Shown here piece by piece: positions 6,486-35,495 of a stretch of 35,654 nucleotides of DNA. Under the pieces are notes generated by a model. The model was not told the DNA's origin. It saw only the letters and a list, made by a program, of their open reading frames with translations, and made no database searches. Positions within the stretch are counted from its first letter, which is position 1, and every line of letters begins with the position of its first letter. This DNA is from Simplicispira hankyongi (GTDB lineage: Bacteria > Pseudomonadota > Gammaproteobacteria > Burkholderiales > Burkholderiaceae_C): contig NZ_QXJC01000013.1 of assembly GCF_003570885.1 (NCBI RefSeq), positions 1 through 35,654 of the forward strand, in the 5' to 3' direction. A program made the translations under genes and the position numbers.

Positions 6486-7853
6486 CTAAGGCTTGCTTAC
6501 ACCGCTTTTGCTGGTGCTCCAGCCAAGGTGCTTGGCCTGCAACTTGGGCGTGCCATGCTCCAGGACACCGCCTACCGTGTAGAAAGAGCCAAAAACGACG
6601 ATTCTATCAGCGGCACCCGCCGCGGCCACCGCCGCATCAAGCGCCTCCTGGGGCGTTGCGTGCAGGCTCACCGGGATGCCCTTTCGTCTGCTCAGACCGG
6701 CCGCCAGGCTTTCCCAGAGTTGCGCGAGATCGGCGGCGCTGGCAGCACGCGCAGTGGGCAAATCGGTGAAATACCAGCGGTCCACCAAGAGGCCAATTCT
6801 CGCCAGCATGCCTTTGATGTCTTTGTCAGCCATGGCACCGAAGACGACGTGCGTCGTCGGATGAAAGCGCATTGCATCCAGGTTGGCCGTGAGCGCAGCG
6901 ACAGCATGCGGGTTGTGGGCCACGTCAAGCACCAGCGTCGGCTCGCCGGGCACGATCTGGAAACGCCCAGCCAGTTCGACCATGCCCAGACCATTGCGCA
7001 CGGCCTGCGCCGTCACTGGAATCCGATCGCGCAGCGCGTCGAGCGCCGCCAGTGCGCCTGAGGCGTTGACCAGCTGGTTGGCGCCGCGCAGTGACGGATA
7101 GGCCATGCCGGCATAGCGGCGACCCCGGCCAGCCCAGTTCCATTGCTGTTTGTCACCGGAAAAGTTGAAATCATGGCCGAAACGCCAGAGGTCGGCACCA
7201 ATTTCGCGCGCATGGTCCACCACGCTCTGCGGCGGCATCGGGTCGCAGACGATGGCCGGGCGGCCGGTGCGCATGATGCCCGCCTTCTCTCGCCCGATGC
7301 TTTCACGGTCAGGCCCGAGGTACTCGGTGTGGTCGATGTCAATGCTGGTAATGACCGCGCAATCGGCGTCCACGATATTCGTCGCATCAAGCCGGCCACC
7401 CAGCCCGACTTCCAGAATGGCGAGATCCAGCTTGGCCAGACTCATCAGGCGCAGGATGGCCAGCGTTGTGAATTCAAAGTAGCTGAGCGAGATTTCTTGG
7501 CCATTTTGGCCTCTGGCGCTCTCTACGGCTTCAAAGTTTGCTATTAACTCAGAAGCACTTACCGCTTCGCCATGAATGCGGCAGCGCTCTTCGAAATGCA
7601 CCAGGTGCGGCGAGGTGTACACACCGGTGCGGTAGCCAGCCTGGAGCGCCACGGCCTCGATCATGGCGCAGGTCGAACCCTTGCCATTGGTCCCGGCAAC
7701 GGTAATCACGGGGCAATCAAAATGCAGATTGAGCCGCTCGGCCACTGCGCGCACGCGCTCCAGGCCCAGGTCGATCTGCTGCGGATGGATGCGCTCGCAG
7801 TGGGCGAGCCAATCCTGAAGGGTAATAGGTGGGGTTGCTGGCATACGGGGCAC
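6486..7853 (-). CDS. folC: Dihydrofolate/folylpolyglutamate synthase
   Basis: Mur-ligase-like ATP enzyme that adds glutamate to dihydropteroate and folates in the cytosol. P-loop VAGTNGKGST lies at residues 52-61, followed by YTSPHLVHFEERCRI and LEVGLGGRLDATN. The C-terminal domain has LDVAHNPHA and ends with the VFGSFYTVGGV motif. I choose GTG 7853 as start: GGAGGA (7859-7864) sits 5 bases upstream. The in-frame ATG at 7844 would have 14-base spacing. The product is about 455 residues. A member of the dispersed repeat family (7508-7544) lies in the coding region and supplies residues around SELIANFEAVESARGQNGQ. It heads the folC-dedD-cvpA-purF-metZ-gltX run; accD, often found upstream, is absent. 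Confidence 0.93.
   Translation of the reverse strand: MPRMPATPPITLQDWLAHCERIHPQQIDLGLERVRAVAERLNLHFDCPVITVAGTNGKGSTCAMIEAVALQAGYRTGVYTSPHLVHFEERCRIHGEAVSASELIANFEAVESARGQNGQEISLSYFEFTTLAILRLMSLAKLDLAILEVGLGGRLDATNIVDADCAVITSIDIDHTEYLGPDRESIGREKAGIMRTGRPAIVCDPMPPQSVVDHAREIGADLWRFGHDFNFSGDKQQWNWAGRGRRYAGMAYPSLRGANQLVNASGALAALDALRDRIPVTAQAVRNGLGMVELAGRFQIVPGEPTLVLDVAHNPHAVAALTANLDAMRFHPTTHVVFGAMADKDIKGMLARIGLLVDRWYFTDLPTARAASAADLAQLWESLAAGLSRRKGIPVSLHATPQEALDAAVAAAGAADRIVVFGSFYTVGGVLEHGTPKLQAKHLGWSTSKSGVSKP
7508..7544 (-). repeat. Dispersed 37-nt repeat, member A (inside folC)
   Basis: On the minus strand this begins ATAGCA and, after 31 bases, ends AGAGCGCCAGAGGCC followed by AAAA. Core length equals that of members B, C, D and F. 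It is read in the sense direction of folC and stays in frame. Compared with the E. coli FolC region as I remember it (ARGDISLTYFE), only about four residues (QNGQ) are extra, so it may have partly replaced host sequence. This is the most diverged member. Confidence 0.55.
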
Positions 7854-7892
7854 GATTGTCCTCCGAGTCGCGGTTTGGGCCATGATGGATGC

Positions 7893-8264
7893 ATGAAAAA
7901 CCCTGTGCTTTACGGCCTCTCCAACTGCGATACCGTGCGCAAGGCACGCGCCTGGCTGTCTGGCCGGGGCGTGTCCTACGAGTTCCATGACTTCAAGAAG
8001 TCCGGCGTGCCGCAAGACGCGCTGGCGCGCTGGCTGGAGGTGCTGGGCCACAAGGCGCTTGTCAACCGCAAGGGAACCACCTGGCGCCAGCTCGACGCCG
8101 CCGAGCAGGCGGCCGTGACGGGCGATACACGGGCGCTGGCACTGCTGCTGGCGCATCCCAGCGCCATCCGCAGGCCCGTGGTCGAATGGCCAAACGGCGA
8201 CATCACCACGGGGTTTGACCCCACAGACTGGGAGCCGCGCAACAAAAACCCGCCAAGCGCCTGA
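7893..8264 (+). CDS. ArsC/Spx-type reductase family protein (YffB-like)
   Basis: Small cytosolic thioredoxin-fold protein of the ArsC/Spx/YffB group, 123 residues. The N-terminus MKNPVLYGLSNCDTVRKARA has the single conserved Cys12 in NCDTVRKA, and the C-terminal half carries RRPVVEW, as in YffB. The second Cys of CxxC-type Spx proteins is missing. True arsenate reductases use a different active-site context, and no ars gene is nearby, so arsenate reduction should not be assumed. It is transcribed divergently from folC across only 39 bases. Confidence 0.85.
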   Translation: MKNPVLYGLSNCDTVRKARAWLSGRGVSYEFHDFKKSGVPQDALARWLEVLGHKALVNRKGTTWRQLDAAEQAAVTGDTRALALLLAHPSAIRRPVVEWPNGDITTGFDPTDWEPRNKNPPSA

Positions 8265-8378
8265 TTGCGCACACTTCTTTACGCAGATTTACGGCGCGCA
8301 CCATCGCCATTCATGGCCGCTGGATAAACTTTCCTTCACCTTGGCGCGTTGTATAGGCGCTTTTGAAAGGGGATCACC

Positions 8379-9026
8379 ATGAAGAAGATTTTGCTGTTTT
8401 CGCTGATTGCCAGTGCATCGGCCATGGCCGTCGCACAGGAACGCGGCCGCGTGCTGTCGGTCACGCCCATCATTGAACAGGTGGCCGTTCCGCGGCAGGT
8501 GTGCGGTAACGAGACGGTGTACACGGGGCCGCAAACCAGCGGCGGCGGCGCGGTGCTGGGCGCCATCGCTGGCGGCGCAGCCGGCAACGCCATCGGTGGA
8601 GGTAGCGGGCGCGCCGCTGCCACGGCGATTGGCGTGATTGGCGGGGCCCTGCTGGGCAACCAAATCGAAGGCAATGGCCGGCCCGAGTACCAGAACGTGC
8701 AGCGCTGCGGCACCCAAATGTCCTACGAAAACCGCACCGCAGGCTACGACGTGGTCTATGAATACGCCGGCAAACGCTACACCACGCGCACCCAAACCGA
8801 CCCGGGCCGCTATATCGCCCTGAGCGTACAACCGCAGCAACAAGGCTACGACCAGCCCTACGACGACAACGGCTACAGCGAGCGCGGGGTGGTCGTCTCG
8901 CCGTACGCCACGGCCCCCATGCCGCCGCAGCCTGTGGTAACGCCTGGCGTGACGATCATTGATTACGGCTACGAGAGCCCACGCCCCTACTATCCCTACC
9001 CACCGCCGCGCCACCATTGGCGCTAA
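8379..9026 (+). CDS. Glycine-zipper 2TM-domain envelope protein
   Basis: Exported protein of 215 residues with a signal peptide (MKKILLFSLIASASAMAVAQ) and no lipobox cysteine. Residues 55-98 form a glycine-zipper domain with repeated GxxxG/GGxxG spacing (AIAGGAAGNAIGGG, GVIGGALLGNQIEG), as in the rickettsial 17-kDa antigen and related envelope proteins. The middle has two Cys (C42 and one in VQRCGTQ) that could pair. The C-terminus is rich in Tyr, Pro and Gln. Shine-Dalgarno AAAGGGG precedes ATG 8379. A strong terminator follows at 9040, so it is a single-gene unit. Molecular role unknown. Confidence 0.85.
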   Translation: MKKILLFSLIASASAMAVAQERGRVLSVTPIIEQVAVPRQVCGNETVYTGPQTSGGGAVLGAIAGGAAGNAIGGGSGRAAATAIGVIGGALLGNQIEGNGRPEYQNVQRCGTQMSYENRTAGYDVVYEYAGKRYTTRTQTDPGRYIALSVQPQQQGYDQPYDDNGYSERGVVVSPYATAPMPPQPVVTPGVTIIDYGYESPRPYYPYPPPRHHWR

Positions 9027-9039
9027 GCGGCAGACCACC

Positions 9040-9060
9040 AGGCCCTTCGGGGCCTTTTTT
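9040..9060 (+). terminator. Rho-independent terminator
   Basis: Stem AGGCCC (9040-9045), loop TTCG, stem GGGCCT (9050-9055), then a run of six T. It lies 14 bases after the stop of the glycine-zipper gene. Confidence 0.9.
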
Positions 9061-9159
9061 CATGGCCTACCGTGCGCGCGAGCAGCGGCCCCATGAGGCA
9101 GACAGGGCTGGCCTAAAATCTCCCCGTCTCAAGCTCACCCCAAAGCGTTCTGCACCACC

Positions 9160-9477
9160 ATGACCACCGAAAAGATCGACGGCGTGTCCGTCACCACCCA
9201 GGCCAGCGTGTATTTCGATGGCAAATGCGTCAGCCACGGCATCACATTCCCTGATGGAACAAAGAAATCGGTGGGCGTGATCCTGCCCGCGACGCTGACC
9301 TTCAAAACCGGTGCGCCGGAAACGATGGAAGGCGTTGGCGGCTCCTGCGAGTACCGCCTCGCCGGCAGCGACACCTGGGTGGCATCTGGCACGGGTGAAC
9401 GTTTCAGCGTGCCCGGCAACAGCCAGTTCGACATCCGCGTCACAGGCGCCTACCACTACATCTGCCACTTCGGCTGA
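9160..9477 (+). CDS. ppnP: Pyrimidine/purine nucleoside phosphorylase
   Basis: Small cupin of the PpnP (YaiE, DUF1255) family, which phosphorolyses several nucleosides to base and ribose-1-phosphate. Length is 105 residues against about 94 in E. coli. Matching blocks are VYFDGKCVSHGITF, KKSVGVILPATLTF, GAPETMEGV and FSVPGNSQFDIRV. Start ATG 9160. It ends three bases before argG, so both are probably one transcript. The link to arginine synthesis is not obvious. Confidence 0.88.
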   Translation: MTTEKIDGVSVTTQASVYFDGKCVSHGITFPDGTKKSVGVILPATLTFKTGAPETMEGVGGSCEYRLAGSDTWVASGTGERFSVPGNSQFDIRVTGAYHYICHFG

Positions 9478-10824
<1,347 letters not shown>

Positions 10825-10834
10825 GTAAGAAATT

Positions 10835-10871
10835 GGCCTCTAGCGCTTTATCTATAAGCGCTAATAGCTAC
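10835..10871 (-). repeat. Dispersed 37-nt repeat, member B (intergenic)
   Basis: Read on the minus strand: GTAGCT, then 31 bases ending GCGCTAGAGGCC, followed by AATTT. The interior contains a perfect 8-bp inverted repeat, TAGCGCTT / AAGCGCTA, with a short AT-rich loop. It lies 10 bases after argG and before its terminator, so it would be in the argG 3' UTR. Confidence 0.85.
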
Positions 10872-10883
10872 AAAATATATAGC

Positions 10884-10919
10884 AAACCGCCTGCCTGTAA
10901 AGCCAGGCGGTTTTCTTTT
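10884..10919 (+). terminator. Terminator of ppnP-argG
   Basis: Stem AAACCGCCTG (10884-10893) / CAGGCGGTTT (10904-10913) with a 10-nt loop, then TTTTCTTTT. It lies between convergent argG and the transporter gene that ends at 10921. The minus-strand tail (GGTTTGC) is weaker but may also terminate. Confidence 0.88.
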
Positions 10920-10920
10920 G

Positions 10921-11586: not shown

Positions 11587-11590
11587 GGCA

Positions 11591-11624
11591 CTCCTTTTTG
11601 ATGAATGGGGGCGAGGGAACCCAT
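11591..11624 (-). promoter_or_regulatory. Candidate preQ1-I riboswitch over the yhhQ ribosome binding site
   Basis: Minus strand: P1 5' strand ATGGG (11624-11620), 10-nt loop TTCCCTCGCC (11619-11610), P1 3' strand CCCAT (11609-11605), then an A-rich tail TCATCAAAAAGGAG (11604-11591). The loop CC can pair with GG of the Shine-Dalgarno AAGGAG, forming the H-type pseudoknot of the translational preQ1-I class. GGGTTC at the loop entry and the A-tract in the tail agree with the class as I remember it. The downstream gene is a queuosine-precursor transporter, the expected target. Confidence 0.55.
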
Positions 11625-11780
11625 GTGGTGGCGATAGTGCCGGGTGGCGATTGTATTCACCTCTTGCGTGCCACGCGGATCGGACAGCGCCACGGCCATG
11701 CGTTCGCGCAGCACCGCTCGCAGGCTTGTCTGCGTCGCCACCCCATCAAAGAGGCGCCGGCAGCCACCCAAAAAAATGCG

Positions 11781-12854: not shown

Positions 12855-12914
12855 TGGGCGAATTGTCGCATTTGCCCCCTATCCGGGCGCATTTTCTTGA
12901 GGAGTCCTGCTGCC

Positions 12915-13400: not shown

Positions 13401-13401
13401 C

Positions 13402-16158: not shown

Positions 16159-17571
<1,413 letters not shown>

Positions 17572-17574
17572 TTA

Positions 17575-17611
17575 ATAGCTTGTAGCGCTTACTGCATATG
17601 CGATAGAGGCC
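17575..17611 (+). repeat. Dispersed 37-nt repeat, member C (intergenic)
   Basis: ATAGCT (17575-17580), 31 bases beginning TGTAGCGCTTACTG and ending GATAGAGGCC, then AATTT; the flanks are AT-rich. It fills the 67-base gap between the tadA fusion start and the small membrane protein stop. Confidence 0.85.
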
Positions 17612-17626
17612 AATTTGACCTGAAAT

Positions 17627-17860
17627 TCATTCTGCCGGTTCAGGCCGCGGTTGGTTCAACGCGTTTTCCAGCGCCTTCTTGTAGTGCTGCTCAATCTGCT
17701 GGCTTTGGTCGCGCACCGTCGCTGGTGCCGAAGCACCGCTGGCCGGAGCGCTCTGCAGTGCTGGCACGGCGGCACGGGTGGTGTCCAGGCTCTTGCGGGT
17801 CATCAGCGCGACCAGCGCAAGGGCCACCAGCAAAGCAACCAGCCCCAGACCAGCGCGCAT
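17627..17860 (-). CDS. Small single-pass membrane protein
   Basis: Predicted 77-residue protein. One N-terminal transmembrane helix (LGLVALLVALALVALMT) is followed by a Pro/Ala/Ser-rich segment and a charged C-terminus with a short helix (QQIEQHYKKALENALNQ). ATG 17860 is chosen because AGGAG lies just upstream; the same frame is open further upstream but only over the paiB-like gene. It starts two bases after the paiB-like stop and is probably co-translated with it. No family recognised. Topology suggests a short cytosolic N-terminus and a periplasmic tail. Confidence 0.65.
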   Translation of the reverse strand: MRAGLGLVALLVALALVALMTRKSLDTTRAAVPALQSAPASGASAPATVRDQSQQIEQHYKKALENALNQPRPEPAE

Positions 17861-17861
17861 G

Positions 17862-18503
17862 TCATTTCTCCTGTGTCGAAACCAGCCCCAGCGTTTCCAT
17901 CCAATGTGCAAGCGCCTGGGCGTCGGCATCACCGGCGCGGTAGCGCGCATGCAGCGCCGCGTGCGACTCGGGGCGGTGCTGGTTCAGCTTGAGCGTGCAT
18001 TGCAGCTCGGTCACGCGCAGTTCGAAGCCGACGATGGCCTTGAGCATCTTGCTGGTGTAGTCCTCGTCCAGGGCGCGCCACTGCGCGGCATAGGGCGGCT
18101 CGTGCTGGCCGATCAGCGCTTTGAGGAGTGCGTCCTTGCCCTCTGCCTCGTCCACCAGCGTCGCCTCGACGCGGCAATGCACGGCCAGGTAGTTCCAGCT
18201 CGGCACGCGCGCCCGGTCGGGGTAGACCGCGGGCGAGAGGTAGGCGCCCGGCCCCAGAAACGTCACCAGCGCCTGCGGCCGCGCCGCAAGGTAGCGCCAA
18301 TGTGGGTTGGCGCGCGCGCAGTGGCCCAAAAGCACCAGCGCTTCGCCCGGCTCACCGTCCACCTCCCGCAGGTGCAGCGGCAGGTGCGAGACCACCGGAA
18401 ACCCGCTGTCGTCGGTGGACACCAGGCTCGCCAGTGGGTGCGCACGCATCAGGGCGCGCGCGTGGGCCGGGTCGGTGGAACGGAACTGCGGTGGCTGGTA
18501 CAT
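17862..18503 (-). CDS. PaiB-like FMN-binding protein
   Basis: Protein of 213 residues in the PaiB / FMN-binding split-barrel family. It opens MYQPPQFRSTDPAHARALMRAHP. Other family blocks are LVSTDDSGFPVVSHLPL, the GHCARANPHWRYL loop, VPSWNYLAVH and KLNQHRPE near the C-terminus. In Bacillus PaiB is linked to protease and sporulation repression; in proteobacteria the role is not established, so I give no regulatory function. Start ATG 18503. Confidence 0.87.
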   Translation of the reverse strand: MYQPPQFRSTDPAHARALMRAHPLASLVSTDDSGFPVVSHLPLHLREVDGEPGEALVLLGHCARANPHWRYLAARPQALVTFLGPGAYLSPAVYPDRARVPSWNYLAVHCRVEATLVDEAEGKDALLKALIGQHEPPYAAQWRALDEDYTSKMLKAIVGFELRVTELQCTLKLNQHRPESHAALHARYRAGDADAQALAHWMETLGLVSTQEK

Positions 18504-18522: not shown

Positions 18523-19677
18523 TTAGTTCAGCGCTACGCGCGAACCGTCCTTGTAGGTATAGAGCGTGACAGCAGGTTCCGTCAACTCACCCTTGGGCGT
18601 GAACGCAATGTTGGCCGTGACACCGTGGTACTGCGCCTTGTGAATGAAGGGCGTGAAGACCTTGGGGTCGACCGAGTCGGCGCGCTTCATCGCGTCGACC
18701 AGCACCATGGCGGCGTCGTAGGCATAGGGGCTGTAGATCTGGAACTGGCCGGGGAACTTGGCGTCGTAGCGCTTCTTCCAGTCGGCACCGCCTTGCATTT
18801 TGTCCACCGAAGCGCCACCCGTGGCGCAGGTCACGTTGCGCAGCGTTGCGGCCTTGGCGGCCAACTCGGGCAGCTTGGGCGTGCACAGCGCGTCGCCGCC
18901 GAAGAACTTCACATTGGCCAGGCCAAGCTGCTCCATCTGGCGCAGCATGGGACCAGCTTGCGCATCGAGCCCACCGTAGAAGATGGCGTCGGGCTTCTTG
19001 CTCTTGATCTTGGTGAGGATGGCCATGAAGTCGGTCGCCTTGTCGGTGGTGAACTCCTCGGCCACCACGTTCATGCCCTTTTGCTTGGCCGTTGCCTTGA
19101 AAACGGAAGCCACACCCTGGCCGTAAGCCGTGCGGTCGTCAATGATGGCGACGTTCTTGAGCTTGTAGTAGTCGGCCGCAAACAGCGCCAGCGCGCCGCC
19201 GAGCGCGTTGTCATTGGCGATCAGGCGGAAGGTGGTGGGGTAGCCGGGTTTGGTCAAATCGGGGTTGGAAGCCGAGGCGGTAATGTTGGGCAGGTCGCAC
19301 TTGGCGTACACCGAGGAGGCGGGAATCGACGTGCCCGACTGCAAATGCCCGACCACGCCAGCGGCATGCTCGTCGCACAGCTTTTGTGCGACGGCGGTGG
19401 CCTGGCGCGGATCGCCGGCGTCGTCTTCGGCAATCAGCTCAAAACGAATCTTGTGCCCGCCGATGGTGAGCTTCTCGGCGTTCAGGTCATCAACCGCCAT
19501 GCGCACGCCGTTTTCGGTGTCCTTGCCGATGTGGGCAATGCCGCCAGAAACCGGTCCGGCGTGGGCGATTTTCACCACCTGAACGTCCTGCGCCGATGCG
19601 GCGGAGGCGCCCAGAACAAGGGCAGTGGCAAGGCACAGAGGCAGGGCCTGTGGCGGGCGGATCGAAAACACGGTCAT
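18523..19677 (-). CDS. Branched-chain amino acid-type ABC transporter binding protein
   Basis: Periplasmic LivJ/LivK-like type I solute-binding protein, 384 residues. ATG 19677 gives a clean signal peptide (LPLCLATALVLGASAASA) with the mature protein starting near QDVQVVKIAHAGPVSGG. Conserved blocks are GKDTENGVRMAVDDLNA, VVGHLQSGTSIPAS and YSPYAYDAAMVLVDAM. No permease or ATPase gene is adjacent, so it is an orphan that may feed a Liv system elsewhere. The substrate is not determinable; many members bind ligands other than Leu/Ile/Val. The leader contains a terminator-like hairpin and a 27-codon open frame. Confidence 0.9.
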   Translation of the reverse strand: MTVFSIRPPQALPLCLATALVLGASAASAQDVQVVKIAHAGPVSGGIAHIGKDTENGVRMAVDDLNAEKLTIGGHKIRFELIAEDDAGDPRQATAVAQKLCDEHAAGVVGHLQSGTSIPASSVYAKCDLPNITASASNPDLTKPGYPTTFRLIANDNALGGALALFAADYYKLKNVAIIDDRTAYGQGVASVFKATAKQKGMNVVAEEFTTDKATDFMAILTKIKSKKPDAIFYGGLDAQAGPMLRQMEQLGLANVKFFGGDALCTPKLPELAAKAATLRNVTCATGGASVDKMQGGADWKKRYDAKFPGQFQIYSPYAYDAAMVLVDAMKRADSVDPKVFTPFIHKAQYHGVTANIAFTPKGELTEPAVTLYTYKDGSRVALN

Positions 19678-19766: not shown

Positions 19767-19825
19767 GGTAGTCGTACCGCAACACCCGTGCAGGCAAGTA
19801 CAGCATTGGAAGTGCTATTTATTTT

Positions 19826-19862
19826 ATAGCTTACAAAGCTTTATATAAAGGCGACAGAGGCC
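19826..19862 (+). repeat. Dispersed 37-nt repeat, member D (intergenic)
   Basis: ATAGCT (19826-19831), 31 bases beginning TACAAAGCTTTATATAAA and ending CGACAGAGGCC, then TATTTT. It lies in the divergent LivK/aldehyde dehydrogenase region. The interior is more diverged than in B or E, but the length is exact. Confidence 0.75.
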
Positions 19863-19916
19863 TATTTTGCTTAAAAACTTTTGCAATGCACGCAGGCTTG
19901 CCGCACAATGTTTTTC

Positions 19917-21350
19917 ATGCAAAACAACTTCATCGCCAACGAACCGGTTGCCTCGGCCAGCGGTCGCACGCTCGACGTCATTGATCCGTCGGACGGGCAG
20001 GTCTTTGACCACCTCCAGCGCAGCGACGCCAGCGACATCGACAGCGCCGTACAGGCGGCGCGCCACTGCTTCGAGACCCTGTGGCGCCCCATGGCGCCGG
20101 CCGATCGCGGGCGGCTGTTGATGCGGCTCTCCCATGCCATCACGGCGCATGGCGACCAACTCGCCGCGCTGGAGCAACGCGACTGCGGCAAGCCCACGGG
20201 CCAGGCGCGCGCCGATGTCCTGGCACTGGCGCGCTACTTCGAGTTCTACGCCGGCGCCTGCGACAAGCTGCACGGGGAGACCCTGCCCTACCAGGAAGGC
20301 ACCAGCGTCCTGACCTGGCGCGAGGCGCATGGCGTCACAGGCCATGTCATCCCGTGGAACTACCCGATGCAGATTTTCGGCCGCAGCGTGGGCGGCGCGC
20401 TGGCAGCGGGCAACACCTGCGTCGTCAAACCGTCCGAAGACGCCTGCCTGTCGCTCTTGCGCGTGGCGCAGTTGGCCGCCGAGGTGGGGTTTCCGCCCGG
20501 CGCGATCAACCTCGTCACCGGCTACGGGCACGAGGTGGGCGACGCGCTGGCCCGCCACGCCGGCATTGACCACATCAGCTTTACCGGCAGTCCCGGCGTC
20601 GGCACGCTGATCGCCCAGGCCGCCGCCGAACGCCACTGCCCGGTGACCCTGGAGCTTGGCGGCAAGAGCCCGCAGATCGTCTTTGCCGACGCCAACCTGG
20701 ACGCGGCGCTCCCCGCCATCGTCAACGCCATCGTGCAGAACGCAGGCCAGACCTGCTCGGCCGGTTCGCGCCTGTTGGTCGAGCGCAGCCTGTACGAGCC
20801 GCTCCTCGAACGCCTGGGCGCCCTGTTTTCAGGCCTGTGCGCCGGGCCGGCCAGCATGGACCTCGATGTCGGGCCCTTGATCCGCGCCACGCAGAAGGAG
20901 CGCGTGCTGGGCTTCCTGGAAGATGCCCACACCGCCGGTATTGCCACCGTGGCCCAGGGCAGCGTGGTCCCTGAGGCGCCCCCGGGCGGCTTCTACGCGG
21001 CCCCCACCTTGCTGCGCGATGTTCCCCCGGAGCACCGTCTGGCGCAAGAGGAAATCTTCGGGCCGGTGCTCTGTGCCATGCCCTTTGACGACGAGGACCA
21101 CGCGGTGCAGCTGGCCAATGGCACGCGCTTCGGCCTGGTCGCCGGCGTATGGACTCAGCAGGGCGCACGCCAGTTGCGGATGGCGCGGCGATTGCAATGC
21201 GGGCAGGTGTTCATCAACAACTACGGCGCGGGCGGCGGGGTGGAACTGCCGTTTGGCGGCGTGAAATCGTCGGGCTATGGGCGCGAGAAGGGTTTTGAAG
21301 CGCTGTATGGCTTCACCACGCTCAAGACCGTGGCCATCCGCCACGGCTGA
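19917..21350 (+). CDS. NAD(P)-dependent aldehyde dehydrogenase
   Basis: Cytosolic aldehyde dehydrogenase superfamily enzyme, 477 residues from ATG 19917. It has the Rossmann region with IPWNYPMQIF and VVKPSEDACLS, the general base E246 in VTLELGGKSPQ, the nucleophile C280 in NAGQTCSAGSR, and the late motifs EEIFGPVL and ELPFGGVKSSGYGREKG. Substrate not determinable; betaine-aldehyde- or gamma-aminobutyraldehyde-type enzymes are the nearest style. No clear Shine-Dalgarno sequence; ATG 19908 is an alternative start. The neighbouring SDR could form an oxidation pair with it, but they are separated by a gene on the other strand. Confidence 0.92.
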   Translation: MQNNFIANEPVASASGRTLDVIDPSDGQVFDHLQRSDASDIDSAVQAARHCFETLWRPMAPADRGRLLMRLSHAITAHGDQLAALEQRDCGKPTGQARADVLALARYFEFYAGACDKLHGETLPYQEGTSVLTWREAHGVTGHVIPWNYPMQIFGRSVGGALAAGNTCVVKPSEDACLSLLRVAQLAAEVGFPPGAINLVTGYGHEVGDALARHAGIDHISFTGSPGVGTLIAQAAAERHCPVTLELGGKSPQIVFADANLDAALPAIVNAIVQNAGQTCSAGSRLLVERSLYEPLLERLGALFSGLCAGPASMDLDVGPLIRATQKERVLGFLEDAHTAGIATVAQGSVVPEAPPGGFYAAPTLLRDVPPEHRLAQEEIFGPVLCAMPFDDEDHAVQLANGTRFGLVAGVWTQQGARQLRMARRLQCGQVFINNYGAGGGVELPFGGVKSSGYGREKGFEALYGFTTLKTVAIRHG

Positions 21351-25084: not shown

Positions 25085-25093
25085 GCCTGCGCC

Positions 25094-26446
25094 ATGACCA
25101 GCATCGAACAGATCGCCGCCAGCCTGGAGGGCTACGACCCGCAGGCGATGAGCAGTACCCAGGTGACGGCGTTTCTCCAGCGCCTGGTGCAGCCGGTGCA
25201 AGAGCGCGAAACCGTCGCTCTGCACGACGCCCTTGGCCGCGTGCTCGCTGCAGACGTGGTTTCCCCCGTGAGCGTGCCGCCGCACGACAACTCCGCCATG
25301 GACGGCTACGCCTTTGACGGCGGCGCGCTGCGCCCCGGCCAGAGCCTGCGCCTGCGCGTGGTCGGCACAGCCCTGGCGGGTGCGGCCTGGCGCGGCAGCG
25401 TGCAGAGCGGCGAATGCGTGCGCATCATGACCGGCGCGGTCATGCCCGAAGGGCTGGACACCGTGGTGCCGCAGGAGTTCACACAGGCCGACGGCGAGCA
25501 CATCCACATCGCGCCAGACCTGCTGCGCGCCGGCGACAACCGGCGCTTGGCCGGCGAGGACCTGATGCAGGGCGCCGGGGCGCTGGCAGCCGGCGAGCGC
25601 ATCACGCCCGCGGCAATCGGCCTGCTGGCCAGTCTCGGCATGGCGCAGGTGCAGGTGCTGCGGCGCCTGCGTGTGGCGTATTTCTCGACCGGCGACGAAA
25701 TCCTGAGCCTGGGCGAGCCCCCGCGCGAGGGCGCCGTGTACGACAGCAATCGCTACACACTGTTCGGCCTGCTCACGCGCCTTGGCGTGGAGGCTATCGA
25801 CCTCGGCGTGGTGCGAGACGACCCCGCGCTGCTGCGGGACGCCTTTGCGCGCGCTGCCGCCCAGGCCGATGCCGTCATCACCAGCGGTGGCGTGAGCGTG
25901 GGCGAGGCCGACCACACCCGCAGCATGATGCGCGAGCTGGGCGACGTGGCGTTCTGGCGCATTGCCATGCGCCCCGGCCGGCCGATGGCGGTGGGGCGTA
26001 TTCCACGCGATAAAATATGGGTTAAAAATGGCTCTAGCGCATATGCAGAAAGCGCTAGTAGCTCATTTATCAGGAGCAATATATTTCCCAACGAAGCGCT
26101 GCTGTTTGGCCTGCCGGGCAATCCGGTGGCGGTCATGGTGACCTTCCTCGCGTTTGTGCGCCCCGCTCTGCTGCGCATGATGGGCTGCACCCAGGCGACA
26201 CCACCGCTGCTGCGCGCGCGCAGCAGCGAGGCGATTCGCAAGAAAGCGGGCCGCACCGAATACCAGCGCGGCCTGGTCGGTGTGGGCGCCGACGGCCAAC
26301 TCGAAGTGCGCGTCACCGGCAACCAGGGCTCGGGCGTGCTCAGCTCCATGGTGCGCGCCAACGGTCTGATCGTGCTGCCGCATGCCAGCGGCAACGTGGC
26401 CGCCGGCGAAATGGTCGACGTGATGGTATTTGACGGCGTGATTTAA
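25094..26446 (+). CDS. moeA: Molybdopterin molybdenumtransferase, with repeat-derived insert
   Basis: Inserts molybdenum into adenylylated molybdopterin. The 450-residue product is longer than E. coli MoeA (411). Motifs are PPHDNSAMDGYA at 62-73, RIMTGAVMPEG at 110-120, FSTGDEIL and TSGGVSVGEADH at 263-274, FGLPGNPVAVMVTF near 338-351 and a C-terminal MVDVMVFD. Between GRI (301-303) and the FGLPGN strand there are about 29 more residues than in E. coli. The stretch KNGSSAYAESASSSFIRSN in it is coded by the dispersed repeat at 26030-26064. The insert sits in a loop between strands, so the enzyme may still work. ATG 25094. Confidence 0.94.
   Translation: MTSIEQIAASLEGYDPQAMSSTQVTAFLQRLVQPVQERETVALHDALGRVLAADVVSPVSVPPHDNSAMDGYAFDGGALRPGQSLRLRVVGTALAGAAWRGSVQSGECVRIMTGAVMPEGLDTVVPQEFTQADGEHIHIAPDLLRAGDNRRLAGEDLMQGAGALAAGERITPAAIGLLASLGMAQVQVLRRLRVAYFSTGDEILSLGEPPREGAVYDSNRYTLFGLLTRLGVEAIDLGVVRDDPALLRDAFARAAAQADAVITSGGVSVGEADHTRSMMRELGDVAFWRIAMRPGRPMAVGRIPRDKIWVKNGSSAYAESASSSFIRSNIFPNEALLFGLPGNPVAVMVTFLAFVRPALLRMMGCTQATPPLLRARSSEAIRKKAGRTEYQRGLVGVGADGQLEVRVTGNQGSGVLSSMVRANGLIVLPHASGNVAAGEMVDVMVFDGVI
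26030..26064 (-). repeat. Dispersed repeat, member E (inside moeA)
   Basis: On the minus strand GAGCT, then ACTAGCGCTTTCTGCATATG, then CGCTAGAGCC followed by ATTTTTAACC. The core is one or two bases shorter than in the other five members. The inverted repeat CTAGCGC / GCGCTAG is perfect. It is antisense to moeA but keeps the moeA frame. Local base use is AT-rich against a GC-rich gene. Confidence 0.85.
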
Positions 26447-26968: not shown

Positions 26969-26997
26969 TTCCCTATATTCAATAAGGTCATTATTCG

Positions 26998-27657: not shown

Positions 27658-27675
27658 ACAACCTCGATTCCTTGC

Positions 27676-28137: not shown

Positions 28138-28183
28138 GCAGTGTTTCCAGTCTTTCCAGTTTCATCAAATTCGTTGGGCCTTA

Positions 28184-29876: not shown

Positions 29877-31399
29877 AGAAACTTCTGCACATCGCCTGCC
29901 TCGCAGGCGCCTTGTGGCTGAGCGGTTGCGCAGCGCCCACCCAGCCCAAGACCCCCACCGAGGAAGGCGCCACGCCGTCTTCAGCCGCGGTCTTCCCGCA
30001 CACGCCGCTGTACCCGCAAGGCCCGCTGCAACCGATTACGGCCGCACAGACCAGTACCCACACCGTGACGCCGCTGTTTGCACCGACAGATTTGTGGGAC
30101 CGCATTCGCCGTGGCTTTGCCATGCCCAACTTGGACAACGACCTGGTGCGGGACCGCGAGCAGTGGTACGCCAGCCGGCCCGACTACATGCAGCGCATGA
30201 CGGAGCGCTCGCGCAAATACCTGTTCCACATCGTTGAAGAGCTGGAACGCCGAGGCATGCCCACGGAGCTTGCGCTGTTGCCCTACGTAGAGAGCGCGTT
30301 CAACCCACTGGCCGTCTCCTCTGCCAAGGCGGCCGGCATGTGGCAGTTCATGCCCGCCACGGGCGATTATTTCGAGCTCAAACAGAATGCCTTTCGCGAT
30401 GACCGGCGCGACGTACTCGCCTCCACCCGCGCGGCGCTGGACTATCTGCAAAAGCTCTACAACATGTTTGGCGACTGGCAACTGGCACTTGCTGCCTACA
30501 ACTGGGGCGAGGGCAACGTGAGCCGGGCCATTGCACGCAACCAGAAGGCGGGCCTGCCCACAGGCTACGACGACCTGACCATGCCCCCGGAAACCCGGTT
30601 GTATGTCCCCAAATTGCAGGCGGTGAAAAATATCGTCGCCAACCCTCGGTTGTTTGCCACCGAGTTGCCGCTGATTGAAAACCACCCGTATTTCGACACC
30701 ATCGATATTTCCAGAGACATCGATGTGGCACTGGCAGCGCAGTTCGCCGGTGTCCGCGAAGAAGACTTCAAGGAACTCAACCCCTCGCTGCACCGCCCGG
30801 TCATCCTGGCCGCCGGAACCCCTCAGATCCTGCTGCCCTGGGACAACGCCAAAGCGTTCGAACGCAATTTCGAGGCCTACACCCAGGGCCAGTACGCCAG
30901 TTGGACGGTATGGACCCTGCCCTCGACCATGAGCGTTGCCCAGGCAGCACGCAGCAGCGGCATGGACGAGCGCGACTTGCGCAGTGTCAACGGCATCCCG
31001 CCGCACATGCTGATCAAGGCGGGCTCAGCCTTGCTGGTGCCGCGTCCCACCACCGTAAAGGCCGACGTGACATCCACGGTTGCCGACAACGGGCAGATTG
31101 CCTTTACCCCCGAAGTGGTGACGCGGCGCACCACCGTGAAGGCCGGCCGGCGCGAGAGCGTCACCAGCATTGCCCGGCGCTACCACATTACAACGGCCGA
31201 TGTGGCCTCATGGAACGACGTGAAGTCGGGCGCTGCCTTCCGTCCGGGCCAGAGTGTGGTGCTCTACCTTCCCGTGCGCATATCTCAGGCCAAGACCAGC
31301 GCACGTGGCAGTTCAGGCAAACGCACCGCTGGCAAGCCTGCGAAGCACTCACGCAGCGCAGGGAAGGCGGCCAATATCAGGCGCAAACAGCACAAATAG
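29858..31399 (+). CDS. mltD: Membrane-bound lytic murein transglycosylase D
   Basis: Outer-membrane lipoprotein, 513 residues, that cleaves peptidoglycan to anhydromuropeptides. Lipobox is LSGC with C24. The SLT goose-type lysozyme domain lies at about 100-270 with catalytic E145 in LPYVESAFNPLAVS and SAKAAGMWQFMPATG. Two C-terminal LysM domains (about 345-400: TLPSTMSVAQAARSSGM; about 430-475: GRRESVTSIARRYHITTADV) bind glycan. The tail is Lys/Arg/Ser-rich. The start is taken as ATG 29858, overlapping gloB by 19 bases; a TTG codon near 29870 is an alternative. Confidence 0.94.
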   Translation: MEKPILKKLLHIACLAGALWLSGCAAPTQPKTPTEEGATPSSAAVFPHTPLYPQGPLQPITAAQTSTHTVTPLFAPTDLWDRIRRGFAMPNLDNDLVRDREQWYASRPDYMQRMTERSRKYLFHIVEELERRGMPTELALLPYVESAFNPLAVSSAKAAGMWQFMPATGDYFELKQNAFRDDRRDVLASTRAALDYLQKLYNMFGDWQLALAAYNWGEGNVSRAIARNQKAGLPTGYDDLTMPPETRLYVPKLQAVKNIVANPRLFATELPLIENHPYFDTIDISRDIDVALAAQFAGVREEDFKELNPSLHRPVILAAGTPQILLPWDNAKAFERNFEAYTQGQYASWTVWTLPSTMSVAQAARSSGMDERDLRSVNGIPPHMLIKAGSALLVPRPTTVKADVTSTVADNGQIAFTPEVVTRRTTVKAGRRESVTSIARRYHITTADVASWNDVKSGAAFRPGQSVVLYLPVRISQAKTSARGSSGKRTAGKPAKHSRSAGKAANIRRKQHK

Positions 31400-31405
31400 C
31401 ACCTG

Positions 31406-31568
31406 GGGCAATGTTGAACAAGTCCCTCACGCGCCGCGCATCCGTACCTCGGGCGGTCTGCGGCGTTGCAAATCCTCGCCATAGCTACGGCTATGGCTGC
31501 GGTTTTCGCCTTGCATTCCATCCCGATGCACGGCGCGCGTCATCGCGGTGACTTATTCAGCATCGCCC
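31406..31568. mobile_element. MITE-like element, copy 2
   Basis: About 163 bp, inverted relative to copy 1 at 28184-28345. Left end GGGCAATGTTGAACAAGTC; right end, reverse complemented, GGGCGATGCTGAATAAGTC. I count about seven differences from copy 1, the inner palindrome CCATAGC / GCTATGG included. It fills the space between convergent mltD (stop 31399) and the DUF3096-like gene, whose stop begins at the element's last base. It could act as a bidirectional terminator. Confidence 0.75.
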
Positions 31569-31720
31569 TAGAAGCGCAACTGGTGCACGCCAATCAGACC
31601 GAACACGCCAATCACGATGAGGTAGAGCGCGACAATGGTGCTGAGCAGCCGGGGAAACACCAGGATGAGAATGCCCGCGACGAGCGCCACCAGCGGGCCA
31701 ATACTGAGGTTGATGTGCAT
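31568..31720 (-). CDS. Small DUF3096-like membrane protein
   Basis: A 50-residue protein, MHINLSIGPLVALVAGILIL at the start, then FPRLLSTIVALYLIVIGVFG and a short tail LIGVHQLRF. Two hydrophobic helices with a FPR turn match the DUF3096 family, whose role is unknown. AAGGA lies eight bases before ATG 31720. Stop TAG (31568-31570) shares one base with the MITE-like element end, so insertion may have trimmed or created the C-terminus. Other family members can be compared for tail length. Confidence 0.75.
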   Translation of the reverse strand: MHINLSIGPLVALVAGILILVFPRLLSTIVALYLIVIGVFGLIGVHQLRF

Positions 31721-31747
31721 GGTGAATATCCTTCGTTCACGCGGTGA

Positions 31748-32170
31748 TCAGCGGTAACCGCTGAACAAGATTGCAATGTTGACCATCAGCGCCACGCCCC
31801 AGACCGTGCTGCGCAGGGTCGCTTTGTCACCCACGTAAAGGGCGATGTAGACGATGCGCAGCAACACGAAGGCGATCGCCAGCATATCCAGGCGGCCTTG
31901 CGGGGCGCCAAGTTGGTGCGCAATGATGACCGCGCCGATGAAAAACGGCAGCGCCTCGAAACTGTTGGCCTGCGCCGCATTGGCGCGAGCGGCCGCACCC
32001 TCCTGCTTCGCGAGCCAGGCGCGGGGGTTGTGGTTGTCGTAGCCCCCCTCGCTGCGCTTCTTGCCCACGCCGCCGCGCTTGGCAAACAAGCCGCAGAAGA
32101 ACGGTAGTACGGCCATGATCAGTACGCACCAATAGGCCAGCGTAAACGGGGGAAGCGCAGAAGGGTTCAT
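31748..32170 (-). CDS. MAPEG family membrane protein
   Basis: Integral membrane protein of 140 residues with about four helices. The loop GYDNHNPRAWLAKQEGAAARANAAQANSFEALPFF carries the Asn/Arg-rich MAPEG signature (eicosanoid and glutathione metabolism superfamily). Bacterial members have uncertain roles; glutathione dependence is inferred only from the superfamily. Start ATG 32170. A hairpin (CCGGC/GCCGG) sits in the gap to recR but lacks a T-run. Confidence 0.85.
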   Translation of the reverse strand: MNPSALPPFTLAYWCVLIMAVLPFFCGLFAKRGGVGKKRSEGGYDNHNPRAWLAKQEGAAARANAAQANSFEALPFFIGAVIIAHQLGAPQGRLDMLAIAFVLLRIVYIALYVGDKATLRSTVWGVALMVNIAILFSGYR

Positions 32171-32245
32171 GGTGGCGGCAGCCCCTGACGGGCATTGTGA
32201 AGTTCCGGCGCATTGTGCCGGTTTGCGCGGCTACCTGCTGCGCTA

Positions 32246-32836
32246 TCAGCGCCGGTCGGCCAGCGCATGGGCAATGGTGCCCAGATCGACAAATTCCAAT
32301 TCACTGCCCACCGGCACACCACGTGCCAGACGCGTCACCGCCAGGCCGCCCTGCCGCAGCGCCTCACCGATCACGTGCGCGGTCGCCTCGCCTTCGGCGG
32401 TGAAGTTGGTGGCAAGAATCACCTCCTGCACCACACCGTCGCGTGCCCGCTCAAGCAGTGCCTTGACGCCAATCTCGGCCGGCCCAATGCCATCGAGCGG
32501 GCTAAGCCGCCCCATGAGCACGAAATACAGCCCGCGAAACGCCCCGGTGCGCTCCAGCGCCGCCTGGTCGGCAGGCGTCTCCACCACGCACAAGCGCGTC
32601 GCGTCGCGCTCCGGGTCCAGACAGACAGCGCACACCTCAGTCTCGGTGAAGGTATGGCAGCGCGCGCAATGCCGCACCTGCTCCACCGCGCCCGCCAGCG
32701 CACGCGACAGCGCCTGCGCACCCTCGCGGTCGTGCTGCAGCAAATGAAACGCCATCCGCGCCGCAGACTTCGCCCCCACGCCCGGGAGGCGGCGCAGCGC
32801 CTGGATCAGCAGTTCAAGAGAATGGGTAGCGGGCAT
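32246..32836 (-). CDS. recR: Recombination mediator RecR
   Basis: Gap-repair protein that with RecO and RecF loads RecA. The 196 residues have a helix-hairpin-helix ([20 protein letters not shown]), a four-Cys zinc finger ([16 protein letters not shown]) and a Toprim domain ([26 protein letters not shown]). ATG 32836 is used; TTG at 32842 is possible. Usually dnaX-ybaB-recR are adjacent; here a 400-bp tandem repeat lies between ybaB and recR. Confidence 0.95.
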
Positions 32837-32875
32837 AGGCAATTGGAATTGTCACTTGTATTCCGACCCCGCACG

Positions 32876-33275
32876 CAAGGGCGTAGCGAGCGGGATGAGC
32901 GGCTAGGCGGCCGGAGCACAGGAACCGGAACGTACTGGAGGTACGTGAGGATTCCGAGCACCGCCCAACAACGCAGATCGCCCGCCCGGTAGCCAGTCAC
33001 CCCCGACCCTCAAGGGCGTAGCGGGCGGGATGAGCTGCCAGGCGCGGGTGGCGGGGAACCGGAGCGTACTGGAGGTACGTGAGGATTCCCCGACGGGCCC
33101 CGCAACAACGCAGATCGCCCGCCCGGTAGCCAGTCACACCCCCACCCTCAAGGGCGTAGCGAGCGGGATGAGCTGCTAGGCGCGGGTGGCGGGGAACCGG
33201 AGCGTACTGAAGGTACGTGAGGATTCCCCGACGGGCCCCGCAACAACGCAGATCGCCCGCCCGGTAGCCAGTCAA
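32876..33275. repeat. Three tandem ~135-138-bp structured repeats
   Basis: The units begin near 32876, 33011 and 33149 and fill the recR-ybaB gap. Units 2 and 3 differ at about three bases; unit 1 is more diverged. Each unit starts CAAGGGCGTAGCG, has an internal hairpin (CGTACTGGAGGTACG, extended by GGAACC and GGATTCC on its flanks) and ends GATCGCCCGCCCGGTAGCC. That end pairs imperfectly with the unit start (GCGGGCGGGATGAG). No convincing coding function: a minus-strand frame is open across units 2-3 but shifts at unit 1. They should be transcribed as part of the operon mRNA. Confidence 0.9.
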
Positions 33276-33608
33276 CTAAAACGGGAATTTCATGCCGCCG
33301 GGGAGGCCGGGCATCCCCGCCGTCAGCTTGCCCATCTTCTCCTGCGACGTATCTTCCGCCTTGCGCACCGCAGCATTAAACGCCGCGGCCACCAGGTCTT
33401 CGAGCATGTCTTTGTCTTCGGCCAGCAAGCTGGGGTCGATGGTGATGCGTTTGACGTCGTGCTTGCAGGTCATCACGACCTTGACCAGCCCGGCGCCTGC
33501 CTCGCCTTCGACCTCGACATGCGCCAATTCGTCCTGCGCCTTCTTGAGGTTGTCCTGCATGGCCTGGGCCTGCTTCATGAGGCCGGCGAGTTGTCCCTTG
33601 TTGAACAT
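33276..33608 (-). CDS. ybaB: YbaB/EbfC nucleoid-associated protein
   Basis: Small DNA-binding protein of 110 residues, a homodimer that coats the nucleoid. Hallmarks are [20 protein letters not shown] at the start, VTMTCKHD-like [21 protein letters not shown] in the centre and a Met/Gly-rich C-terminus ([14 protein letters not shown]). AAAGGA precedes ATG 33608. It follows dnaX by 33 bases, the typical order. Confidence 0.95.
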
Positions 33609-33641
33609 GGTGAAATCCTTTGTTGATCGATGGGGGGCGGC

Positions 33642-35495
33642 CTACAAGGGCCGGATGCTTCCAGGAACGATTTTCGCGCCATGGTTCTGCACCATGGCTT
33701 GCACGAAGGGGTCGTTCATGACAATGGCGCGGGCGCGCTCCAGGTCGGCATTTTCCTGCGCCGTATTGCGCCGGGCCGGCGTATCGCTGACGCGGCCCGT
33801 TTCAACACTAATGCGCTCGGCGTGCCCCGCGGCAGACAGCGCCGCCCGCAGACGCTCGCGGCTTGCCGGCTGGTTGAGCGATTCGCGCTCCACCCGCAGC
33901 AGCCAATGGTCGCCATCGCGCGCGATGAGCTGCGATTGCAGCGCCAGCTCGCGCACCAGGGCGGTGACCGATTCACTGGCAACCAGTTGCTGCACCACAG
34001 CGTGCCAGCAGTCGCCCTCTTCGCTCCGTTCGGGCTGCGGCGTCTGCCCCTCGGCTCGGGGCTGGAGGCGAGGGCCGGGCTCGGGCATTTCGCGCACGGG
34101 GACGGTGAGCACCGCAGGTGCAGACGCCGGGATGGTCACCGGGGCGATGGCTTCGGGAATCGGCTGCGCCACCGCCTCGCCAGACGCCACTGGCGTCGCA
34201 AGCATGCCATTTGCTTCTTTTTCGATAGCTGCTTGCGCAGGCGGTATAAGCGCTAGAGGCTCATTTTTCTTAAAATTTACGGCTGCAGCCGGCGGCACCG
34301 CCATTTCTGCCGCCGCGGGTGCGGCCGGCGCTTGGGCCACTGGCGCAGCGGGCTCAGGCGTCAGCGCTGTTTTTTTTTCCGGCGCGCCGCCCGCTGGCTT
34401 GAAAGCCAGCAGGCGCAGCAGGACCATGGTGAACGCCGCGTACTCGTCGGGCGCCAGGCCCAGTTCGGTGCGGCCGTGCAGACACATGCTGTAGAGCAGT
34501 TGCGTCTCGTCGGGTGGCAGCAGCGCCGCCAGGCGCGCGGTTTCCTGCGCTTCGGCGTCGTCTTCGCCCGATTGGCGGTGGCCGGGCACAGCCTGCAGCA
34601 CGGCCATGCGCTGCAGCAGGGCGCACATGTCTTCCAGCGCAGCGGCAGCCGACAGGCCGTGCAGGCGCAGCGCCTCGGCGGTCTCCACCACGGTGCGGCC
34701 GTCGCCACGCGCCAGTGCATCGACGAGGCGGGTGACGTGCGAGCGGTCCACACTGCCCAGCATCTGGCGCACTGCGGCCTCCTCGATGCTGCCGCTGCCA
34801 AAGGCAATGGCCTGGTCGGCAAGCGAGAGCGCATCCCGCATGGAGCCGCGGGCGCCGCGCGCCAGCAGGCGCAGTGCCGCCGGCTCGGCGGCCACCTGCT
34901 CGGCGGCGAGCACATGGGCGAGGTGCTCCTGCACGGTATCGGGCGCCATGGGGCGCAGGTTGAACTGCAGGCAGCGCGAGAGCACCGTCACCGGCACCTT
35001 CTGCGGGTCGGTCGTGGCGAGCACGAACTTGAGGTATTCGGGCGGCTCCTCCAGCGTCTTGAGCATGGCGTTGAACGCCGTGGTCGTCAGCATGTGGACT
35101 TCGTCGATCATGAAGACCTTGAAACGACCCTGCACCGGTTTGTAGACCGCCTGCTCCAACAGGCCCTGCACTTCATCGACGCCCCGGTTCGACGCCGCAT
35201 CCAGCTCGGTGTAGTCGACAAAACGGCCGGCATCAATCGCCGTGCAGGCCGCGCAGACGCCGCAAGGGGTGGCCGTAATACCGCCCTGCCCGTCTGGCCC
35301 CTGGCAATTGAGCGACTTGGCCAAAATGCGCGAGACGGTGGTCTTGCCGACGCCGCGCGTGCCGGTGAACAGATAGGCATGGTGCAGCCGCTGCTGGGTG
35401 AGCGCATTGGTCAGCGCCTGTACGACATGCTGCTGGCCGACCATTTCGCCAAAATTGCGCGGACGGTACTTGCGGGCGAGCACGAGGTAGGACAT
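33642..35495 (-). CDS. dnaX: DNA polymerase III subunit tau (and probably gamma)
   Basis: Clamp-loader ATPase and replisome organiser. 617 residues: Walker A GTRGVGKTT at 45-53, zinc Cys set (CQGP..CGVCAAC) at 64-85, DEVHML, SRCLQF. A Pro/Ala-rich linker begins after about residue 365, and the tau C-terminal domains follow (QQLVASESVTALVRELALQ, NDPFVQAMV). An A9 tract at 34370-34378 lies at codons 373-376, just past the clamp-loader part. A -1 shift or one added A ends after KKNSADA (stop 34354), and one lost A ends after KKQR. Both give a gamma-like product of about 380 residues. A dispersed repeat codes about residues 411-424 of the linker. Confidence 0.96.
   Translation of the reverse strand: MSYLVLARKYRPRNFGEMVGQQHVVQALTNALTQQRLHHAYLFTGTRGVGKTTVSRILAKSLNCQGPDGQGGITATPCGVCAACTAIDAGRFVDYTELDAASNRGVDEVQGLLEQAVYKPVQGRFKVFMIDEVHMLTTTAFNAMLKTLEEPPEYLKFVLATTDPQKVPVTVLSRCLQFNLRPMAPDTVQEHLAHVLAAEQVAAEPAALRLLARGARGSMRDALSLADQAIAFGSGSIEEAAVRQMLGSVDRSHVTRLVDALARGDGRTVVETAEALRLHGLSAAAALEDMCALLQRMAVLQAVPGHRQSGEDDAEAQETARLAALLPPDETQLLYSMCLHGRTELGLAPDEYAAFTMVLLRLLAFKPAGGAPEKKTALTPEPAAPVAQAPAAPAAAEMAVPPAAAVNFKKNEPLALIPPAQAAIEKEANGMLATPVASGEAVAQPIPEAIAPVTIPASAPAVLTVPVREMPEPGPRLQPRAEGQTPQPERSEEGDCWHAVVQQLVASESVTALVRELALQSQLIARDGDHWLLRVERESLNQPASRERLRAALSAAGHAERISVETGRVSDTPARRNTAQENADLERARAIVMNDPFVQAMVQNHGAKIVPGSIRPL
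34225..34261 (+). repeat. Dispersed 37-nt repeat, member F (inside dnaX)
   Basis: ATAGCT (34225-34230), 31 bases ending AAGCGCTAGAGGCT, then CATTTTTCTT. Antisense to dnaX but in frame. It codes residues within NEPLALIPPAQAAIEKEANG. It lies in the tau-only linker, 109 bases downstream (in gene direction) of the A9 slippage tract. Codon use here is AT-rich against the rest of the gene. Confidence 0.85.
34370..34378 (-). promoter_or_regulatory. A9 slippage/frameshift tract in dnaX
   Basis: Nine A in gene direction (codons GAA AAA AAA ACA). Both alternative frames stop within 4-8 codons. The same kind of A9 run makes gamma by transcriptional slippage in Thermus dnaX; E. coli uses a -1 frameshift on A AAA AAG. 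Confidence 0.6.

Follow-up and report, generated by a model that had tools for sequence, protein, structure and literature searches.

What keeps six copies of one AT-rich palindromic repeat in place, some between genes and some inside them, is the question raised by a 35,654-nucleotide stretch of Simplicispira hankyongi DNA (contig NZ_QXJC01000013.1, positions 1 to 35,654 of the forward strand; this whole stretch is the window). An initial annotation of the window had described a 37-nt repeat family associated with the Comamonadaceae, and had proposed either small structured elements moved by a transposase in trans or RNA signals. The family proves to be real, abundant, linked to the Comamonadaceae and present in and between genes, but neither mobility in trans nor an RNA role stands up. 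The repeats are read here as a chromosome-wide 71-bp sequence recognised as double-stranded DNA. Its most likely role, a claim in which belief and doubt are evenly balanced, would be that of a candidate DNA-uptake (self-recognition) sequence of this Comamonadaceae lineage. The reading is preferred because of the abundance of the unit, its bias towards core DNA, its conservation, its tolerant positions, its origin in place, its recombination, its dialect and its clean loss.

All six reported repeats are found on the strands claimed for them, both in a check of the sequence and in a matrix scan of the window. The first 800 kb of contig C1 supplied 65 copies, in which conservation spans positions −16 to +54 relative to the 37-nt core and hardly extends further: the conserved unit is 71 bp with AT-rich ends, not 37 nt, and holds ∼54 bits of information. 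At a threshold of 15, the 71-column matrix picks exactly these six copies in the window, listed here with gene calls from our own simple coding model:

Unit A: 7490..7560, minus strand; core 7508-7544, matrix score 34.5; within a Mur-ligase-family gene (6486-7853, minus), element and gene co-directional.
Unit B: 10817..10887, minus strand; core 10835-10871, score 80.4; overlaps the argG stop by 8 nt (gene end 10824), upstream of a separate terminator-like hairpin (by eye).
Unit C: 17559..17629, plus strand; core 17575-17611, score 80.8; in the spacer between genes 16159-17538 (minus) and 17862-18503 (minus).
Unit D: 19810..19880, plus strand; core 19826-19862, score 63.6; in the divergent spacer between genes 18523-19677 (minus) and 19917-21350 (plus).
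Unit E: 26011..26081, minus strand; core 26029-26065, score 65.7; within moeA (25094-26446, plus), antisense, in a length-variable loop.
Unit F: 34209..34279, plus strand; core 34225-34261, score 79.7; within dnaX (33642-35495, minus), antisense, residues ∼405-429.

Units A, E and F are intragenic, C and D occupy spacers and B overlaps a stop codon. Unit E, formerly given as 35 nt, aligns gap-free across the 37 nt of the core. By its Pfam domains, DnaX accommodates unit F in the interdomain linker between domain III (to residue 364) and tau domain V (from residue 490). Orthologous copies of unit B are present in relatives, and unit C, at a locus termed gamma, has orthologous copies in 11 aligned relatives.

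Beyond the window, the matrix at a score of at least 18 finds 134 copies in 800 kb of the source genome and none in the reversed sequence. The originally described layout, with at most two mismatches, has 298 matches genome-wide against none for the reversed pattern. Chance is excluded by these two controls, and the concern that counts might not rise above those in control sequence does not apply. Extrapolation gives ∼620 copies per 3.71-Mb genome, a strong chromosomal over-representation of the kind expected of an uptake sequence, and in a model-free count of 10-mers, run on two 200-kb parts of the genome, pieces of the motif rank highest. Mean spacing across 800 kb is 6,012 bp, in agreement with the ∼6 kb first noticed, and is somewhat more even than random (coefficient of variation 0.82; 0.9% of random draws are as low).

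The family is a trait of part of the Comamonadaceae. Among the 25 other genomes of the genus, 22 have 75-295 matches to the original layout (at most two mismatches), while G002, G005 and G007 have 1-2 each; in other families of the order the count is 0-3 per genome (24 genomes). Within the family, 49 of 250 genomes have at least 50 matches (at most three mismatches, counted by hand); the rest are for the most part close to the control. Loss recurs inside genera with rich members: 4 matches in G244 against 439 in G159 (genus g135), 5 in G292 against 184 in G130 and 318 in G222 (g106), 5 in G209 against 179 in G115 and 222 in G282 (g91), and 10 in G249 against 129 in G166 (g142). Loss in G002 and G005 left no relics: in 200 kb of each there is no matrix match at a score of 0 or above, compared with 36 in the source genome. 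A survey of 52 named moeA loci found seven with matches (at most three mismatches; 16 matches versus 4 in the reversed control). Carriers are L050 (Acidovorax), L051 (Giesbergeria, a Comamonadaceae genus), L059, L086 (Ottowia), L091 (Acidovorax) and L100 (Paracidovorax); the match in L077 (Variovorax) is probably due to chance. The moeA loop peptides of L050 and L051 are the same as those in the same-genus genomes G021 and G017.

In what form is the unit read? An inverted repeat within the core and a position at gene ends (a median of 16 bp past the upstream gene in co-directional spacers) would suit a hairpin acting in RNA as a terminator, attenuator or processing site. In 183 copies, however, stem pairs form at the shuffled rate (0.55 versus 0.55 for pair 14-24; 0.49 versus 0.50 for pair 16-22), with only pair 5-33 and one pair in a slid register exceeding it. 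On these counts a hairpin RNA or single-stranded DNA element was rejected, and the unit lacks the stem covariation expected of repetitive extragenic palindromic (REP) sequences with a RAYT-type transposase. Between co-directional genes it lies in the same orientation 28 times and in the opposite one 27 times, not in the transcript-end orientation of an intrinsic terminator. At argG the unit adjoins a separate terminator-like hairpin, standing before or after it depending on the species (by eye), Rfam gives no match except tRNAs, and a second dialect, described below, is without such a palindrome. An RNA signal is accordingly a very improbable explanation. The tRNA genes themselves, six at 9-734 of the window (minus strand), form an apparent tandem duplication of a three-gene block, in which three Rfam scores recur in the same order ∼402 bases further on.

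Column couplings point to another form of recognition. The strongest are between neighbouring positions, and dinucleotides in the tracts are AA or TT and rarely AT or TA (134 copies). At core positions 39-40, AA/TT is observed 127 times against 87 expected and AT/TA 3 times against 43 expected. The AT-tracts are centred near −14, −4, +39.5 and +50, the two tracts on either side being spaced by about one helical turn. Since AA and TT swap within tracts and the stem does not covary, recognition as double-stranded DNA is suggested.

A second version of the unit separates its frame from its centre. In genus g56 (two species), a hand-written pattern allowing at most six mismatches finds 60 copies in 400 kb and has no match when the sequence is reversed. 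These keep the outer modules, namely GCTAT, seven bases and ATAGCT, followed by GGCTAGAG and C and by AWTTT. The tract positions are retained as well, and weaker tracts lie near +61 and +70. In the inner part the bases are different and do not form the same palindrome. The g56 form is a clear second dialect, with the same outer frame placed around a different centre, and it supplies the one clear instance here of the lineage dialects that mark uptake sequences. Because g56 has this frame around another centre, the palindrome itself seems to be a feature of the source clade's centre. Nothing similar stood out as another dialect in 200 kb each of G002 and G005; one candidate in G005 was rejected as a local 9-bp tandem repeat of CCAGTAACG units (L213, 9210-9282). 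Two copies in G289 (C1, 3029240 and 305783) have a centre, AGGCA...ATAAAAC...GGCGCTA, unlike the other copies of that genome, which may mean that dialects are mixed there.

The copies are held at fixed places. The syntenic relative G011, represented by 340 kb, allows 36 of the 134 copies to be tested (the other 98 lie outside the test), and 34 of these have a counterpart at the same place and in the same orientation, two being absent; acceptance of pairs at a matrix score of at least 18 leans slightly to conservation, though 34 of 36 passed. Within the 34 pairs, mismatch is 6.5% in columns of at least 1 bit versus 37% in columns below 0.4 bit; intergenic copies alone give 6.1% in conserved and 45.1% in variable columns. 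For reference, the two genomes diverge by 29.6% at third codon positions and by 20.3% in alignable intergenic DNA outside the elements. Column information and mismatch are anticorrelated (Spearman −0.85), the columns having been ranked on the source genome's own copies. Neutral relics should not give such a pattern; high conservation at orthologous places is also what an uptake sequence would display.

Around argG, copies recur at three places throughout the genus, with flanks that barely align. At one of them, locus alpha just upstream of argG (L126-L145), the unit is present in 9 of 21 genomes and absent in 12. G023 is filled, while its nearest regional relatives, G022 (91.0%) and G003 (90.6%), are empty and have a short native spacer that resembles those of G004 and G025. 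Filled and empty alleles do not track species closeness. This pattern is read here as allele exchange by recombination, possibly between species.

The fixed 71-bp length and the short native spacer of empty alpha alleles would also fit a former or slow mobile element, such as a REP, a miniature inverted-repeat transposable element or a Rickettsia-type palindromic element, with copies that became fixed afterwards. Comparison with orthologues lacking the unit, available for 10 of 43 intragenic copies, bears on this directly. At the spot of unit A, seven Mur-ligase-family orthologues score from 9.0 to 39.8 and ten lack the unit (−36.5 to −52.7); no gap separates carriers from non-carriers, one carrier having four extra residues. 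Copy C1_237929 (score 53.6) is gap-free in three of four such comparisons, and two weaker intragenic copies show no gap. The unit can evidently arise in place without insertion, judging from these alignments. Of 88 comparisons in all, 22, unit A included, are gap-free, 20 have a gap of 4-14 aa and 46 one of at least 15 aa (42 in moeA, 4 in dnaX). The irregular gaps lend the mobile element some support, as does moeA, where the loop between anchor motifs measures 141-180 nt in carriers and 75-141 nt in the 7 loci, of 16, that lack the unit. The moeA unit is present in all eight parsed same-genus genes (source included; four of 12 same-genus loci were unparsed) and in 9 of 16 other moeA loci, the loop having been examined in 16 of 52 named loci. 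Taken alone, moeA looks like an insertion. A constant 71-bp insert was nevertheless sought in the 10 copies and none was seen, the gaps running from 0 to about 30 aa. Insertion with target duplication, which the initial annotation had proposed looking for at filled and empty loci, was sought at alpha and at the 43 intragenic copies (10 with lacking orthologues) and rejected.

The transposase suggested at the same time fares no better. G003 has 114 copies and no Y1-transposase (RAYT-type) gene, whereas G002, G005 and G007 have such a gene and 1-2 copies each, so RAYT mobility was rejected: Y1 presence does not follow repeat abundance. With 34 of 36 copies stationary, strong constraint at each locus and scarcity in unshared DNA, a mobile origin is improbable. 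The single Y1-transposase gene of the source genome (L009, G000:C13 ∼426412-426747) is flanked by inverted GGGGTCTGACCCC-like repeats of its own, unrelated by eye to the 71-bp unit.

The placement of copies is biased towards core DNA and away from divergent spacers. DNA common to G011 holds 39 copies in 212 kb, against one in 33 kb of unshared stretches of at least 2 kb (P 0.015; one genome pair), a core enrichment and scarcity in acquired DNA that an uptake sequence would share. Only 40 of the 134 copies are wholly intragenic, where 112 would be expected, and 32 of these 40 fall in two reading phases; 55 are in co-directional, 28 in convergent and 5 in divergent spacers, with 4 at gene edges and 2 at the ends of contig pieces. 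In spacers of at least 60 bp, occupancy is 25 of 53 for convergent, 54 of 233 for co-directional and 5 of 91 for divergent ones. Three of 72,556 plasmid records and none of 50,697 phage records match, which is only suggestive because the query recovers just 34-37 of the 134 known copies. Viral contigs yielded one copy (L146, 2552-2588, minus strand; contig of 42,656 bases), in viral or flanking host DNA.

The same placement feeds the main rival explanation, in which a nucleoid protein, condensin loader or gyrase-like enzyme would wrap the 71 bp by means of the phased A-tracts, mostly near the ends of genes, where supercoils accumulate. Such a site for chromosome architecture or topology would account for the double-stranded type of coupling, the phased tracts, the contrast between convergent and divergent spacers, the slightly even spacing and the rarity of the unit in unshared DNA. 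It sits poorly with complete loss in lineages whose genera hold rich relatives, with a dialect that keeps the frame and changes the centre, and with 40 of 134 copies being intragenic. A replication-strand signal was also discarded: 39 strict matches in G004 (20 forward, 19 reverse) have no strand trend by eye, which tells against a topology site too. The latter is a serious possibility, if an unlikely one.

Published DNA uptake sequences (DUS) are core-biased and conserved, sit in permissive places, arise by recombination and form dialects (PMC2397512, PMC3630211). The present unit may work like a DUS, a statement as open to doubt as to belief; it is not claimed as one of the known DUS, because it has 71 bp and not 9-12 bp. 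During natural transformation the unit would be bound by a receptor on the cell surface, probably one of the minor pilins of the type IV pilus, and the phased A-tracts would help to bend the helix or narrow it. DNA with good copies would enter and recombine more often, and copies would be repaired and passed among relatives by homologous recombination at tolerant sites such as gene ends, linkers and loops; by such preferential entry and recombination they would stay near the consensus without transposing. More tentatively, with the balance tipped a little towards doubt, this could be a third, separately evolved uptake system: a long modular double-stranded signal whose outer modules are constant, whose A-tracts are in helical phase and whose inner dialect module can be exchanged. 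The type IV pilus would read it, transformation drive would maintain it, and several lineages would have lost it cleanly.

The source genome encodes a ComP_DUS-family pilin. Pilins closest to it (above 110 bits) occur in 25 of 37 motif-rich and 2 of 23 motif-poor genomes, with a threshold set after the data had been viewed and ancestry uncontrolled, and the median pilin isoelectric point is 9.51 in the 37 rich and 8.86 in the 23 poor genomes. One pilin per genome was used, some genomes having several, and 8 of 68 loci were unparsed (G155, rich; G093, G102, G138, G152, G209, G149 and G060, poor). Several observations count against an uptake role. ComP_DUS pilins are present in 79 of 80 genomes, motif-rich and motif-poor alike; G005 and G249 have the source-type pilin without the motif, and G088 has 581 matches without that pilin type. 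No chain named ComP is among the 22 PDB matches to the pilin, the nearest solved chains being major pilins and one PilE. ComEC is found in 23 of 26 same-genus genomes, including the motif-poor G002 and G005. Flanking DNA is more divergent than the remainder of the gene in 6 of 12 genes (means 0.152 versus 0.138), a result that does not confirm the more divergent flanks predicted for a DUS, 71 bp is far above the 9-12 bp of known uptake sequences, and the enrichment in convergent spacers fits a topology site equally. Evidence for the pilin as receptor is weak, and the pilin and ComEC distributions do not prove an uptake role. A prepilin regular expression run over part of the source genome had no matches.

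Natural transformation is documented in relatives. It occurs in Acidovorax temperans, A. facilis and Verminephrobacter eiseniae, and was not obtained with A. defluvii and A. delafieldii; A. temperans took up own-species DNA only (PMC4212676). In V. eiseniae, loss of the pilus by mutation reduces transformation from ∼1e-2 to at most 1e-7, and salmon DNA in up to 1500-fold excess lowers transformation about ten-fold (PMC4212676). The portion of that account available names no uptake sequence. If the uptake reading is right, it would explain the own-species transformation of A. temperans and the selective uptake of V. eiseniae. In the literature searched, uptake sequences are described only for Neisseriaceae and Pasteurellaceae. 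Were there a third system in the Comamonadaceae, recognition of self DNA would be widespread among soil and freshwater bacteria and reach beyond these two families. A candidate in a large environmental family offers a simple bench test and a possible aid to genetics in these bacteria, and a second dialect system in which to study the co-evolution of signal and receptor. If the role is chromosomal, the unit is a conserved lineage-specific site at ∼600 places (extrapolated) with a function undescribed in the same literature.

Among known repeats, REP/REPIN-RAYT families likewise place hundreds of short palindromic repeats in a genome, but the 71-bp unit has no link to RAYT, is stationary, is intragenic in 30% of cases and lacks stem covariation. 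Rickettsia palindromic elements provide a case of palindromic sequence tolerated in frame inside proteins, as it is here; unlike them, the unit leaves no constant insert and several copies arose gap-free. The BRE repeat occurs in Bordetella and several Comamonadaceae and is also intragenic, but is ∼90 bp long with a mean GC of 69%, tandem, and present in at most 29 copies (PMC3110155).

Pieces of the unit have been seen before. In PMC5217627, GCTTAT(N)5AAGCG from Acidovorax ebreus appears with 114 copies, of which 44 are in convergent, 4 in divergent and 59 in co-oriented spacers, and ATAGCT(N)22CAAAAG from Polaromonas naphthalenivorans with 125. Both are put forward there as potential novel motifs, the sole argument being one against a part in transcription initiation; most motif pairs, 140, are in Rhodoferax ferrireducens. 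The first motif lies within source-genome copies (for example C4:4286), and the Polaromonas one is probably a related dialect. The available part of that paper proposes no 71-bp unit, dialects, constraint or uptake role. Searches by core strings and by uptake sequences in these taxa met no proposal of an uptake role among the entries listed, most subscription papers being outside their scope.

The closest parallels are the two established uptake signals. In the uptake signal sequence (USS) of Pasteurellaceae a short core lies on one side of the tracts, whereas here tracts flank a 37-bp centre on both sides. The AT-rich segments of the USS are helically spaced. Like the unit, the USS combines a conserved core with AT-rich segments, which in the USS interact in uptake (PMC7811141). 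The Neisseriaceae DUS differs in being 10-12 bp long, unrelated in sequence and proven by uptake assays, the 71-bp unit being a candidate. With the DUS/ComP system the unit nonetheless shares very many copies, core bias, permissive positions, conservation, lineage dialects and intragenic copies limited by the reading frame (PMC3630211, PMC2397512).

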